Of a stretch of DNA of 64,000 nt, positions 434-4,209 are shown piece after piece. The DNA comes from Chryseobacterium culicis (GTDB lineage Bacteria; Bacteroidota; Bacteroidia; Flavobacteriales; Weeksellaceae). The position numbers and the translations under genes were made by a program. The stretch spans positions 1 through 64,000 of the forward strand of contig NZ_FNWQ01000010.1 of NCBI RefSeq assembly GCF_900108365.1, in the 5' to 3' direction. The notes under the pieces are model-generated. The model searched no databases. It was given only the letters and a program-made list of their open reading frames with translations, and was not told where the DNA came from. Positions within the stretch are counted from its first letter, which is position 1, and each line of letters begins with the position of its first letter.

Positions 434-631
434 ATGAAAAATCTAGCAAAGATTTCACGAGAGCGTTTAAAATCACTGAATGGGGGCGCAGGACCTGCAT
501 GTCTGGAAGAATTACAATTCAGAATGTGTTATCCTCCTGGATGGCCTAACGGTATCTGCCTGAGCTATTATCAATGTTGTGTGAGACTTGGCGGACCAAT
601 AGAATTTTGCAAAGAAGAATATGGTAAATAA
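434..631 (+). CDS. Orphan double-glycine leader peptide, cysteine-rich (bacteriocin-like)
   Basis: A 65-residue peptide. Residues 1-18 are a leader of the type MKNL..S...L....GG, which in Bacteroidota marks precursors exported and cut after GG by a peptidase-containing ABC transporter. The predicted core (19-65) holds six cysteines (23, 32, 42, 48, 49, 59), many Gly, Pro and aromatic residues, and is almost free of long hydrophobic runs, so disulfide bonds or Cys-based modification are plausible. No transporter, modification enzyme or immunity gene lies within the window near it; neighbours are an rRNA operon and a carboxylase gene. A terminator follows at 661-696, supporting a single-gene transcript. 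Function as bacteriocin or signal is inferred from the leader only. Confidence 0.75.
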   Translation: MKNLAKISRERLKSLNGGAGPACLEELQFRMCYPPGWPNGICLSYYQCCVRLGGPIEFCKEEYGK

Positions 632-719: not shown

Positions 720-2348
720 TCATACCTGTATTACTCCTAAATTGAATTTCTCAGTGATTGGAGCATGATTGGCAGCCTCAATCCCCATAGAAATCCATTT
801 TCTTGTATCCGCGGGGTTAATAATTGCATCTGTCCACAATCTTGCGGCGGCATAAGTAGATTCTGTCTGTTTCTGATATTTTTTTGAAATGCTATCCAAA
901 ATTTCGTTGTGTTCTTCTTCAGAGATTTCTTTTCCTTGCTTTTTTAACGTAGACTCCTGAATCTGCGCTAAAACTTTTGCAGCTTGCGCTCCACCCATTA
1001 CGGCCAGATCTGCCCAAGGCCATGCAACAATTAATCTTGGATCATAAGCTTTACCACACATTGCGTAGTTTCCTGCTCCATAGGAATTTCCTGTAATGAT
1101 CGTAAATTTAGGAACAACAGAATTTGAAACTGCATTCACCATTTTGGCTCCATCTTTAATGATTCCTCCATGTTCTGATTTTGATCCTACCATGAACCCG
1201 GTAACGTCCTGCAGGAAGATCAGCGGTATTTTTCTTTGGTTACAGTTCGCAATAAATCGGGTAGCTTTATCTGCAGAATCAGAATAAATTACTCCTCCAA
1301 ACTGCATTTCTCCTTTTCCGCTCTTAACCAGCTTTCTCTGATTGGCCACAATTCCTACAGACCAGCCGTCAACCCTTGCCGTTGCACAGATAATACTTTT
1401 ACCGTAGTCTGGTTTATATTCATCATATTCGGAGTTATCCACAATACATTTGATAATTTCGTAGGTATCATACTGTTCCGCTCTTGAAACGGGCATTATC
1501 CCAAAAATATTTTCAGGATTTTCTTTTGGCGGGAAGCTTTCTATTCTGTCAAATCCTGCTTTCTCAGTACTTCCGATAGATTTCATGATGGTTCTGATCC
1601 TATTCAGAGCATCTTTGTCATCTTTCGCTTTATAATCTGTTACGCCGGAAATTGAGCAGTGTGTAGTAGCTCCCCCCAGTGTTTCATTATCAATACTTTC
1701 TCCAATAGCTGCTTTTACCAGATAACTTCCGGCAAGGAAAATAGAACCTGTTTTGTCCACAATCATAGCTTCGTCACTCATGATAGGTAAATAGGCTCCA
1801 CCAGCTACGCAGCTGCCCATTACGGCAGAAATCTGGATGATTCCCATAGAGCTCATTTTAGCATTATTTCTGAAAATTCTTCCAAAATGTTCTTTATCAG
1901 GAAAAATTTCGTCTTGCATAGGCAGATAAACGCCGGCAGAATCTACCAGATAAATAATAGGAAGTTTGTTTTCCATGGCAATTTCCTGTGCCCGCAGGTT
2001 TTTCTTTCCTGTGATAGGAAACCATGCTCCTGCTTTTACAGAAGCATCATTGGCAACGATAATGCACTGTCTTCCGGAAACGTAGCCAATAACCACTACC
2101 ACTCCTCCGCTAGGACATCCTCCATGCTCTTCATACATCTCATAGCCTGCAAATGCACCTATTTCTATAGAATCTGAATCTTTATCGAGAAGATAATCTA
2201 TTCTTTCTCTTGCTGTCATTTTTCCTTCATCACGAAGTTTTTGAAGCCTCTTCTCACCCCCTCCTTTTTTGATGTCAGTAAGTAGGCGATTTATTTCTGA
2301 TAATTTTAATCTGTTCTGATCTTCTCGTTTATTGAATTCGATGTCCAT
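720..2348 (-). CDS. Acyl-CoA carboxylase carboxyltransferase (beta) subunit, methylcrotonoyl-CoA carboxylase type
   Basis: A 542-residue carboxyltransferase that would move the carboxyl group from carboxybiotin to an acyl-CoA. Length and motifs fit the beta subunit of 3-methylcrotonyl-CoA carboxylase: the N-terminal half carries GSCVAGGAYLPIMSDEA and the C-terminal half GNSYGAGNYAMCGKAYDPR and WPWADLAVMGGAQAAKVL, the glycine-rich stretches that form the two oxyanion holes of the crotonase-fold halves. The likely pathway is leucine breakdown, but propionyl- or geranyl-CoA cannot be excluded from sequence alone. No biotin carboxylase (alpha) subunit is beside it, so the partner must be encoded elsewhere. 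It is transcribed alone, leftward, toward the terminator at 661-696. Confidence 0.88.
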   Translation of the reverse strand: MDIEFNKREDQNRLKLSEINRLLTDIKKGGGEKRLQKLRDEGKMTARERIDYLLDKDSDSIEIGAFAGYEMYEEHGGCPSGGVVVVIGYVSGRQCIIVANDASVKAGAWFPITGKKNLRAQEIAMENKLPIIYLVDSAGVYLPMQDEIFPDKEHFGRIFRNNAKMSSMGIIQISAVMGSCVAGGAYLPIMSDEAMIVDKTGSIFLAGSYLVKAAIGESIDNETLGGATTHCSISGVTDYKAKDDKDALNRIRTIMKSIGSTEKAGFDRIESFPPKENPENIFGIMPVSRAEQYDTYEIIKCIVDNSEYDEYKPDYGKSIICATARVDGWSVGIVANQRKLVKSGKGEMQFGGVIYSDSADKATRFIANCNQRKIPLIFLQDVTGFMVGSKSEHGGIIKDGAKMVNAVSNSVVPKFTIITGNSYGAGNYAMCGKAYDPRLIVAWPWADLAVMGGAQAAKVLAQIQESTLKKQGKEISEEEHNEILDSISKKYQKQTESTYAAARLWTDAIINPADTRKWISMGIEAANHAPITEKFNLGVIQV

Positions 2349-2489: not shown

Positions 2490-2612
2490 TCTAACTTTAC
2501 ATAAGAGTAATGGAGGGTGATAACCTCTGAAAATTACTCTGTTCCTAGTTTATTTTTTTAATAGTTTATTATTTGAAGGCCCTGAAAGTTTAACACATTT
2601 TCAGGGTTTTTT
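2490..2612 (+). ncRNA. Candidate small RNA with 5' stem-loop and intrinsic terminator
   Basis: Between two minus-strand genes lies a plus-strand unit with no convincing ORF. A promoter-like TAACTTTA (2492-2499) is followed by a stem of AGAGTAAT (2504-2511) with ATTACTCT (2533-2540), topped by an inner helix GAGG/CCTC (2513-2516 with 2524-2527) and loop GTGATAA. About 40 A/T-rich bases later a terminator hairpin CCCTGAAA (2580-2587) / TTTCAGGG (2599-2606) ends in TTTTTT. The T run exists only on the plus strand, so the terminator cannot belong to the minus-strand genes. The RNA would be about 110 nt. No known family is recognised. Confidence 0.45.
2580..2612 (+). terminator. Intrinsic terminator of the candidate small RNA
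   Basis: An 8-bp stem (2580-2587 with 2599-2606) with an 11-base loop and six following T. It overlaps the stop codon of the acetyltransferase gene on the other strand. Confidence 0.75.
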
Positions 2613-3152
2613 ATGTTCAGACGGTAAACGCTGGTAATATTTTCTATATTCTACAATATTGAGATCGGTGGTATCGTTTTTATATTTTCTGTATTTTTTT
2701 ACAGGAATGAAGCCAAGTTTTTCCGGAATTTTTTTGCTTGCTATGTTTTCTTCATCCACAGGATATACAATATAGTTAAAAGTAAAATTATTTTCCAGGA
2801 ATTCTATAAGAGTTGTTATGATTTCGGTTCCCAATCCTTTTCCCTGAGAGTCCTTTTTTAACCATAGCCCAAGCTCAGCAGATTCTGCTGTTATATTATG
2901 GATACCGCAACAGCCCACAAAGCTCTTATCAGAATCCACCGCCACCATTACCAGATCTGTATTTTGTGACAAAGTTCTTTTTGATTCTTCAACAAAGTGG
3001 ACTATATCATTCCTGTTGCCTTGTGGGTTAAAAGGCATATATGTGGTGATATCATTGGTGAAATGCTCCAGAATATCATCTATATACAAATCTTGTACAG
3101 GCTGTAAGATTAAATGTTCTGTTTGGATTTCAATATTTGGAGTCAATCTCAT
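2601..3152 (-). CDS. GNAT-family N-acetyltransferase (RimJ/RimL-like)
   Basis: A 183-residue protein of the acetyltransferase_3 (RimJ/RimL) type: an N-terminal segment beginning 'IQTEHLILQPV', central strands with 'LGLWLKKDSQGKGLGTEII' that contain the acetyl-CoA pyrophosphate-binding Q/RGxGxG/A-like loop, and a C-terminal 'ASKKIPEKLGFIPVKKY' segment typical of the fold. It would transfer acetyl from acetyl-CoA to an amine; the acceptor (protein N-terminus or small molecule) cannot be read from the sequence. Transcribed alone; a divergent transporter gene follows 178 bp upstream. Confidence 0.85.
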   Translation of the reverse strand: MRLTPNIEIQTEHLILQPVQDLYIDDILEHFTNDITTYMPFNPQGNRNDIVHFVEESKRTLSQNTDLVMVAVDSDKSFVGCCGIHNITAESAELGLWLKKDSQGKGLGTEIITTLIEFLENNFTFNYIVYPVDEENIASKKIPEKLGFIPVKKYRKYKNDTTDLNIVEYRKYYQRLPSEHKKP

Positions 3153-3265
3153 CTTAATTTTTGATCTTTGGTCTTTTTATTAAATTAATAGAAAAGGTTT
3201 TAAACTGGAAGAAAAACTATTAAAAATTTTATTTTATCATCCATTTATTAACACAAATTTATGTT

Positions 3266-3302
3266 TTTTTGTAAGATTTATAAAAGCGTATTTGTAAATT
3301 TG
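3266..3302 (+). promoter_or_regulatory. Promoter of the EamA transporter gene
   Basis: TAAATTTG at 3295-3302 matches the Bacteroidota -7 element TAnnTTTG, and TTTTTG at 3266-3271 can serve as the -33 element with a 23-bp gap. The start codon follows 28 bp after the -7 box. Confidence 0.65.
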
Positions 3303-3330
3303 CACATTTAAAATTCAAAGCAGATAGGTT

Positions 3331-4209
3331 ATGCATAAATTGGCGCTTTTCAGGTTGCACTTAATCGTATTTTTGTGGGGGTTCACTGCAATTTTAGGAA
3401 AATTGATTCAGGCCAATGCGCAAATCCTGGTATTTTACAGAATGCTTTTTGCTTCCGTTTTTCTTTTCGTATTCATCAGAGTTTTTAAAAAGGAAAGTAT
3501 AAAGGTTAGCAAAAAAATATTCTTTCAGCTGGCTGCTATAGGTTTTGCGATGGCACTCCATTGGTACTGCTTTTTTTATTCTATAAAAGTCTCCAATGTT
3601 TCTATTGCATTAAGCTGTCTTTCATTATCTACTCTTTTTGCTTCTATTTTGGAGCCAATTATCTTCAAAAGGAAGATAGATATTTCCGAAGTGATCATGG
3701 GAGCGGTTATTGTGGCCTGTATACTTTTGATCTTTAAAACAGAATTTCATTTTAAAGAAGGAATTATTTATGGAATTCTATGCGCCATATTTGGAACGAT
3801 ATTCTCTGTTTTTAACGGTAAAATGTTTGGTAAAACAAGCTCTGGTAATATTATTTTTTATGAAATTTTCTGTGGCTGGTTTATTTTAATGTTATTCTAT
3901 CTGTTTTCAGGTCAAATTTTTCAGATGAACGAAATAAACTACAGAGATCTGGCGTTAATATGCTTATTAGCAAGTGTTTTTACTGCATTTCCTATGTTAG
4001 AATCCGTTAATTTAATGAAGTATATATCACCTTTTACTTTAATTTTAACAGTTAATTTAGAACCGGTCTACGGAATTATACTAGCTTTTTTTATCTTTGG
4101 GGAATCAGAACATATGAGCCCTATATTTTATATCGCTTCAGGTGTTATGATACTGGCAATCATTGCAAATGGATTAATAAAAGCCAGAAAAACTAAAAAC
4201 TTAAACTAA
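3331..4209 (+). CDS. EamA/DMT-superfamily transporter
   Basis: A 292-residue integral membrane protein with about ten hydrophobic helices in two repeated halves, as in the drug/metabolite transporter superfamily (EamA domain twice). The opening segment 'HLIVFLWGFTAILGKLI' and second-half 'NLEPVYGIILAFFIFGE' are characteristic of EamA proteins. It probably exports a small metabolite or amino acid across the inner membrane; substrate is not readable. The downstream PorV-like gene begins 13 bp after its stop, so the two are probably co-transcribed, although there is no obvious functional link. Confidence 0.88.
   Translation: MHKLALFRLHLIVFLWGFTAILGKLIQANAQILVFYRMLFASVFLFVFIRVFKKESIKVSKKIFFQLAAIGFAMALHWYCFFYSIKVSNVSIALSCLSLSTLFASILEPIIFKRKIDISEVIMGAVIVACILLIFKTEFHFKEGIIYGILCAIFGTIFSVFNGKMFGKTSSGNIIFYEIFCGWFILMLFYLFSGQIFQMNEINYRDLALICLLASVFTAFPMLESVNLMKYISPFTLILTVNLEPVYGIILAFFIFGESEHMSPIFYIASGVMILAIIANGLIKARKTKNLN

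Follow-up and report, generated by a model that had tools for sequence, protein, structure and literature searches.

In enterobacteria, the small RNA (sRNA) GcvB uses a highly conserved, exposed linker between hairpins to recognise enhancer-like sequences close to many start codons; it is G/U-rich, about 200 nt long and Hfq-dependent. The RNA described here is A/U-rich and about 110 nt long, and the comparison with GcvB is an analogy only. The nearest described systems found were FopS/GibS of Bacteroides thetaiotaomicron and Rfp18 of Flavobacterium psychrophilum, both of which differ from it in copy number or architecture. FopS and GibS are short RNAs that pair with translation starts through their seeds; in FopS, one and the same RNA both binds protein and pairs, and the Bacteroides protein RbpB binds single-stranded parts of sRNAs (PMC11697453). 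The RNA studied here comes from the same phylum and resembles them in its intrinsic terminator and in a conserved, apparently single-stranded putative seed. Unlike FopS, for which the same paper gives 14 paralogs and a seed at the 5' end, it was represented in its own genome by one match to the DNA query and one to the covariance model R1, not by a multicopy family, and its conserved stretch lies between two hairpins. Rfp18 affects protease mRNA levels and, like the present RNA, is a conserved intergenic sRNA of a flavobacterium; it differs in that its pairing region is predicted in a third stem-loop, a distinction drawn from its description only (PMC9723704).

A further RNA of similar size, about 110 nt, is 6S-Flavo (RF01685). 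Its covariance model gave no match at the locus, and the only 6S-Flavo match reported in the genome (C16:122734-122837) fell short of the cut-off of 85 with 44.4 bits. No Rfam 15 family reached its threshold in the sRNA region; the one match at the gathering threshold within the 64,000-nt stretch of Chryseobacterium culicis DNA that was analysed (the window) lay elsewhere. Between 2350 and 2750, seven weak matches were obtained at E <= 10, all below their own thresholds, and FopS and GibS were not among them (the release may or may not include FopS). No description of the RNA was found in the open-licence literature searched, passages of the review PMC9029176 included, and four linker strings had no match there. 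As far as could be searched, the sRNA family is undescribed.

Organization of the predicted sRNA locus

The features of the locus are as follows (positions in the window).

720-2348, minus strand: carboxyl-transferase gene (Pfam Carboxyl_trans, 1.3e-144), which we take to encode a pccB-like acyl-CoA carboxylase beta subunit; divergent, constant neighbour
2443-2458, strand unassigned: upstream element TTnTGAAATnTTTAAC; 11/16 columns invariant in 90 loci, mean majority frequency 0.953
2492-2499, plus strand: -7 box; TAACTTTA in 81, TAATTTTA in 8 and TAAATTTA in 1 of 90 loci
2500-2612, plus strand: predicted sRNA; found in 172/173 genus genomes, model R1 E = 3.1e-23 in its own genome
2504-2540, plus strand: two-level 5' stem-loop, variable in sequence, kept in structure
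2542-2577, plus strand: A/U-rich linker TTCCTAGTTTATTTTTTTAATAGTTTATTATTTGAA with two copies of TAGTTTATT, the proposed pairing or protein-binding region
2575-2612, plus strand: intrinsic terminator; stem 2575-2589/2597-2611, T run 2607-2612
2601-3152, minus strand: GNAT acetyltransferase gene, a variable insertion downstream of the sRNA, present in 8/60 genus loci examined
3331-4209, plus strand: EamA transporter gene, the usual but not constant downstream gene

A preliminary description of this DNA had put forward a plus-strand sRNA candidate of about 110 nt at 2490-2612, comprising a promoter-like sequence, a two-level stem-loop and an intrinsic terminator with a T run on the plus strand only, between two minus-strand genes. 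Each of these features was recovered. The flanking carboxylase and GNAT genes are both on the minus strand, and the GNAT stop codon (2601-2603) sits within the 3' arm of the terminator. The promoter-like sequence is TAACTTTA, presumably the -7 box of a Bacteroidota promoter of the TAnnTTTG type, and the box is kept across the 90 genus loci aligned, with 7/8 columns invariant. The stem-loop has a lower stem at 2504-2511/2533-2540 and an upper stem at 2512-2516/2524-2528, as proposed. Six T close the terminator on the plus strand, and the minus-strand stem is followed by CCTTCAAATAA, without a T run. The further statement that no reading frame of more than about seven codons starts in the element held for ATG, whereas a GTG frame of 14 codons begins at 2517.

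The overall layout is a Bacteroidota-type promoter box, a two-level 5' hairpin, a 36-nt A/U-rich linker and an intrinsic terminator. Read from the -7 box, the 5' end of the transcript would lie near 2504, and its 3' end within the T run. The element has a promoter of its own, as judged by motif and conservation only, its own terminator and no protein-coding frame, and it is independent of its neighbours in that the downstream gene varies and the upstream gene is divergent. The minimum free energy (MFE) of 2490-2612 was -32.8 kcal/mol (z -3.76), and 1 of 200 dinucleotide shuffles was equally stable. A simple scan for sigma-70 and terminator consensus sequences listed neither the sRNA promoter nor the terminator, and the case for the sRNA therefore rests on comparison. 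As it is conserved, the element is not a product of chance. Covariation, the kept promoter box and a synteny that argues against a leader all support the candidate, and the stretch very probably makes a short regulatory RNA belonging to a real sRNA family of a known kind, as far as comparison of sequences can tell.

Upstream of the -7 box, the -33 region is weak (TTTC at 2469-2472 in the window, mostly TTTT among relatives, by eye); the -7 box itself is less clear in several other genera. The upstream element TTnTGAAATnTTTAAC at 2443-2458 may be an activator site. By eye, TTTAAC or TTAACA was seen at a similar distance upstream in several other genera, and in its own genome the element had 35 matches with at most one mismatch, compared with 14 for the backwards control. 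No regulon was recognised among the contexts of the 30 matches inspected in that genome. A palindrome, ATGTTAA-n6-TTAACAT, was observed upstream of the sRNA in the genus labelled g5 (L130-L132), other genera having mainly the TTTAAC half.

Conservation of the linker

The linker at 2542-2577 is the most striking part of the sRNA and had been absent from the preliminary description. Conservation was scored in an alignment of 90 genus loci, including the window's own, out of 172 matches: the best 30, and 60 chosen lower-scoring ones among the matches listed. All 36 of the 36 linker columns were invariant, and the exact string was present in 90/90 loci. In a 600-nt piece of the adjacent carboxylase gene (50 of the 90 loci), invariance was seen at 7/200 third positions and 257/400 first and second positions, and just downstream of the sRNA at 0/60 columns. 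Because 36/36 columns are fixed as against 7/200 third positions in the neighbour, the constraint on the linker is, on this alignment, tighter than that on the neighbouring protein and unlike coding constraint.

In the MFE structure of the window, the linker was mostly unpaired. RNAalifold placed a weak hairpin of eight never-varying pairs inside it, so that "single-stranded" is a reading of the MFE structure and not a certainty. Among 34 other-genus loci, some of them found via the core TTTAATAGTTTATTATTTGA itself, that core was present in 25 and the exact linker in 9. The linker was clearly altered at the syntenic place in the Kaistella-type genome G291 (L149). Diverged forms of the sRNA were also seen by eye upstream of the carboxylase gene in g7, without the linker end, and in g9, with only parts kept (L317, L319 and L320).

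Hairpin structure and covariation

Across the same 90 genus loci, 3/38 columns were invariant in the 5' hairpin region and 22/35 in the terminator. When the distinct 5' domains were folded singly, 80/80 gave one hairpin with an interior loop or bulge, and the larger unpaired stretch was on the 3' side in 74 of these. With 46 non-redundant genus sequences, RNAalifold, unaided, predicted the upper stem and the terminator; the lower stem was not predicted. In view of this omission and of the self-pairing of the linker in the RNAalifold result, the structure was supplied by hand for the covariation count on these 46 sequences. Double-change cells then numbered 44, compared with 20.0 ± 3.1 after shuffling (0/500 shuffles as many). 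Nine pairs had double changes (4/500 shuffles), and further pair types reached 23/500. In the hand-given structure, 92.6% of cells paired, which fell to 61-65% when partners were slid by one column.

Double changes were found in 5/5 pairs of the upper stem. The lower stem, in which the preliminary description had looked to compensatory changes as a check, bore this out in part: double changes occurred in 3/7 pairs, whereas its two innermost pairs failed in 32 and 18 of the 46 sequences. For a cross-genus count, 65 sequences drawn from several genera were aligned to the model, a procedure that favours the structure. In this fitted alignment there were 216 double-change cells compared with 63.0 ± 10.6, and double changes occurred in 7/7 pairs of the lower stem and 7/14 pairs of the terminator, in which 99.3% of cells paired. 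Between genera, the 5' hairpin was swapped altogether for another. On these counts, the hairpins change with compensation.

Distribution within the Weeksellaceae

The genus matches were obtained by BLAST with the 123 bases of the element, and G104 was the sole genome without one. The match in G137 was marginal (E 3.7e-4) and received no support from model R1, and that in G156 was cut by a contig end. A carboxylase query had no match in G104, G137 or G156, and a gap in the draft assemblies is therefore the likely cause in all three. Positions 1-40 of the window resemble what we take to be the 3' end of a 5S rRNA gene, although no 5S rRNA was among the Rfam results there; such a gene would explain why the locus often lies near contig ends in drafts. 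A second DNA match was seen in 13 genus genomes (e.g. G001, G013 and G058); these matches may be paralogs or chance terminator matches, and in G013, G033, G035 and G155 model R1 gave just one match.

Beyond the genus, homologs with a looser linker were found beside the same carboxylase gene in Kaistella, in Elizabethkingia and in other members of the family. The genera in which the sRNA was found with carboxylase synteny are those labelled g1, g26, g23, g5, g12, g24, g4 and g11. The g23 loci were identical to those of Elizabethkingia occulta and E. miricola over the 90 nt upstream of the linker core. Model R1 matched 41 of 296 genomes of the order, 38 of them in its own family (label f1), which we take to be the Weeksellaceae, and three marginally in two other families. 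These three (G422, G456 and G471, E 6e-4 to 9e-4) were rejected, as their loci contained no carboxylase or EamA gene; by eye, the 400 nt upstream of their carboxylase genes were likewise without the element, and no validated homolog was found outside the family.

Of 36 hand-chosen genomes, 30 matched R1 with E <= 0.05, though several of these matches were weak and had no synteny. L152-L154 were rejected for lack of synteny, and L150 contains a linker-like stretch, but no carboxylase gene was found in its genome (G210). Scanning named genomes with a pattern yielded 20 records (8 Kaistella, 6 labelled Chryseobacterium, 3 Elizabethkingia, 1 Amniculibacterium and 2 MAGs with no family given), which do not amount to a census because the pattern required a form of the terminator that is absent from the window's own genus. 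Inspection by eye of the 400 nt upstream of the carboxylase gene revealed no element in 13 other genera of the family or in seven genomes of four other families. The sRNA thus appears to be conserved in part of one bacterial family, the Weeksellaceae.

Candidate targets of the linker

Pairing of real and shuffled linkers was compared at 825 starts in 1.07 Mb of the 4.9-Mb genome. No bulk excess was found, mean pairing being -9.70 compared with -9.49 ± 0.38 for shuffled linkers (16/60 shuffles as low). The far tail showed a slight excess, with 16 starts at <= -17 compared with 9.8 ± 4.7 (4/60 shuffles as many). Near-complements of the linker were not enriched genome-wide (28 matches, including the sRNA gene itself, compared with 36 for the control). 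Around -14 to -10, the starts of this genome are rich in A, which gives a U-rich linker broad affinity for them. The sequence AAACTATG was no general start context, occurring at 9/825 starts compared with about 7 expected from base frequencies. In 21 genomes, AAATAATAAACT with an ATG within 28 nt gave 109 matches compared with 62 for the backwards control, overlapping matches being counted repeatedly and many lying in one conserved coding sequence.

Among candidate targets, the best lead is the start of hppA, encoding a membrane pyrophosphatase, although it was chosen post hoc and cannot be the sole target. In the window's own genome (z -2.41), the hppA start carries AAATAATAAACTATG, with 14 contiguous nucleotides complementary to the linker, part of the start codon included. 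Over 22 other linker-bearing genomes, the mean hppA duplex was -13.1 compared with -9.14 ± 1.27 for shuffled linkers (2/300 as low). No signal was seen in three genomes scored as non-bearing (77/300), one of which, G182, carries the diverged homolog L162. Four neighbour genes used for comparison (starts sampled: 30/119, 8/8, 30/88 and 30/81) also gave no signal (z -0.12, +1.38, -0.53 and +0.70). The hppA match was partly lost in several Kaistella-type genomes, and the pyrophosphatase was not found in 2/2 Elizabethkingia-type genomes that keep the sRNA. Because the gene was chosen post hoc, the genomes are related and the Elizabethkingia-type genomes keep the sRNA without the pyrophosphatase, hppA is not an established target. 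AAATAATAAACTATG occurred in 10/21 genomes: at hppA in six (G000, G058, G066, G073, G079 and G113), at another gene in G012, and also in G024, G055 and G101. The gene start in G012 (L341, G012:C1:2825065-2825079) belongs to a protein whose N-terminus, in our assessment, presumably resembles SusC-like transporters.

Proposed mode of action

The element at 2500-2612 on the plus strand is probably a free-standing, trans-acting sRNA whose linker pairs with A-rich starts, an RRM protein perhaps binding to it. Transcription of such an sRNA would start at a promoter of its own, run divergently to the carboxylase gene and stop at a terminator of its own. The 5' hairpin and the terminator would serve as structural caps, free to drift in sequence, and the 36-nt linker with its two TAGTTTATT repeats would be the working part. 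By base-pairing with several mRNAs at their A-rich translation starts (motif AAUAAACU(A)), the linker would block initiation, in analogy to the action of GibS and FopS in Bacteroides, and it may in addition serve as the binding site of an RRM protein. Proteins with an RRM_1 domain were found in 9/9 linker-bearing genomes tested (G178 and G180 counted by their diverged forms) and in 4/8 genomes without the linker, relatedness being ignored in this comparison of 17 genomes.

It is possible, if rather unlikely, that the linker of a stand-alone sRNA is mainly a protein-binding site, which would titrate or recruit an RNA-binding protein such as an RRM_1 protein rather than pair with mRNA. Repeated protein sites would fit the invariance over 36 nt with its repeated TAGTTTATT, and the lack of a bulk excess of mRNA pairing and the RRM_1 proteins of every linker-bearing genome tested point in the same direction, as does the binding of single-stranded sRNA parts by RbpB. 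This has to be set against the RRM_1 proteins in half of the genomes without the linker and the example of FopS, in which both functions are combined (PMC11697453). An unlikely further possibility is an Hfq-less, family-wide global regulator in which the 36 nt are fixed within the genus as a multi-target seed together with an RRM docking site, its dose being set via a conserved upstream activator site. In such a regulator, the whole linker would be fixed because it is at once a seed, with TAGTTTATT repeats that match A-rich starts, and a docking site. To our knowledge, Hfq is absent.

Gene neighbourhood and remaining alternatives

In those genus loci that were measured, the linker core lay 200-212 nt from the carboxylase start; in other genera the distance was 175-229 nt. 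On the downstream side, the arrangement is less regular. The EamA gene lies on the same strand as the sRNA in 59/60 genus loci, with its start 77-1112 nt from the terminator (77-264 nt in 39 of them), and 1200 nt away in L173; it was not found in the stretches of g5 and g24 that were read, the linker core being retained nonetheless. If the element were a cis-acting leader or attenuator of the EamA gene, the usual presence of that gene downstream would be accounted for, but the element has no fixed sense position upstream of that gene, a minus-strand GNAT gene intervenes in 8/60 loci and in the window, and the near-constant distance is to the carboxylase gene instead. As this distance is kept and the downstream gene varies, the element is no simple leader, a reading that is disfavoured and very unlikely.

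The interval 2613-3330 and its relatives vary strongly, other insertions or none being seen in the loci without GNAT. On the far side of the carboxylase gene, an Rfam DUF805b RNA (RF02914, 40.5 bits) was observed at 379-413 on the plus strand, just upstream of a 65-aa peptide gene (434-631, plus strand) whose product is a member of the Chryseobacterium "bacteriocin-like protein" leader family (NF047798). About 19 tandem TACAG pentamers, with 93% matches, lie ahead of the peptide gene at 105-197.

A conserved DNA element, or a regulatory region shared with the carboxylase gene, might keep a near-constant distance to the carboxylase start, but helix compensation and a strand-specific T run are signatures of RNA, and the linker, which lies past the sRNA's own promoter, begins at a distance of 194 nt from that start; this makes an element other than an RNA gene highly improbable. 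That a small protein is encoded is extremely improbable, for although one linker frame is open, an ATG is present in just 24/90 transcripts with no conserved start seen (with ATG, GTG or TTG starts, a frame of more than 14 codons occurs in 17/90 relatives, some maybe running off the end), all 36 linker columns are fixed, third positions included, and the length of the U run differs between genera, shifting the frame.

Implications

That 36 linker letters are fixed while neighbouring synonymous sites are scrambled represents very strong constraint. As a probable free-standing, trans-acting sRNA, the element would be a concrete, small and deletable gene for RNA regulation in Chryseobacterium and its relatives, and the diverged forms L317, L319, L320 and L149 would be useful for finding its essential part. 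It may thereby offer an entry point into RNA regulation where very little is known, and would permit a test of whether RRM proteins and sRNAs are used together in Bacteroidota outside the gut.
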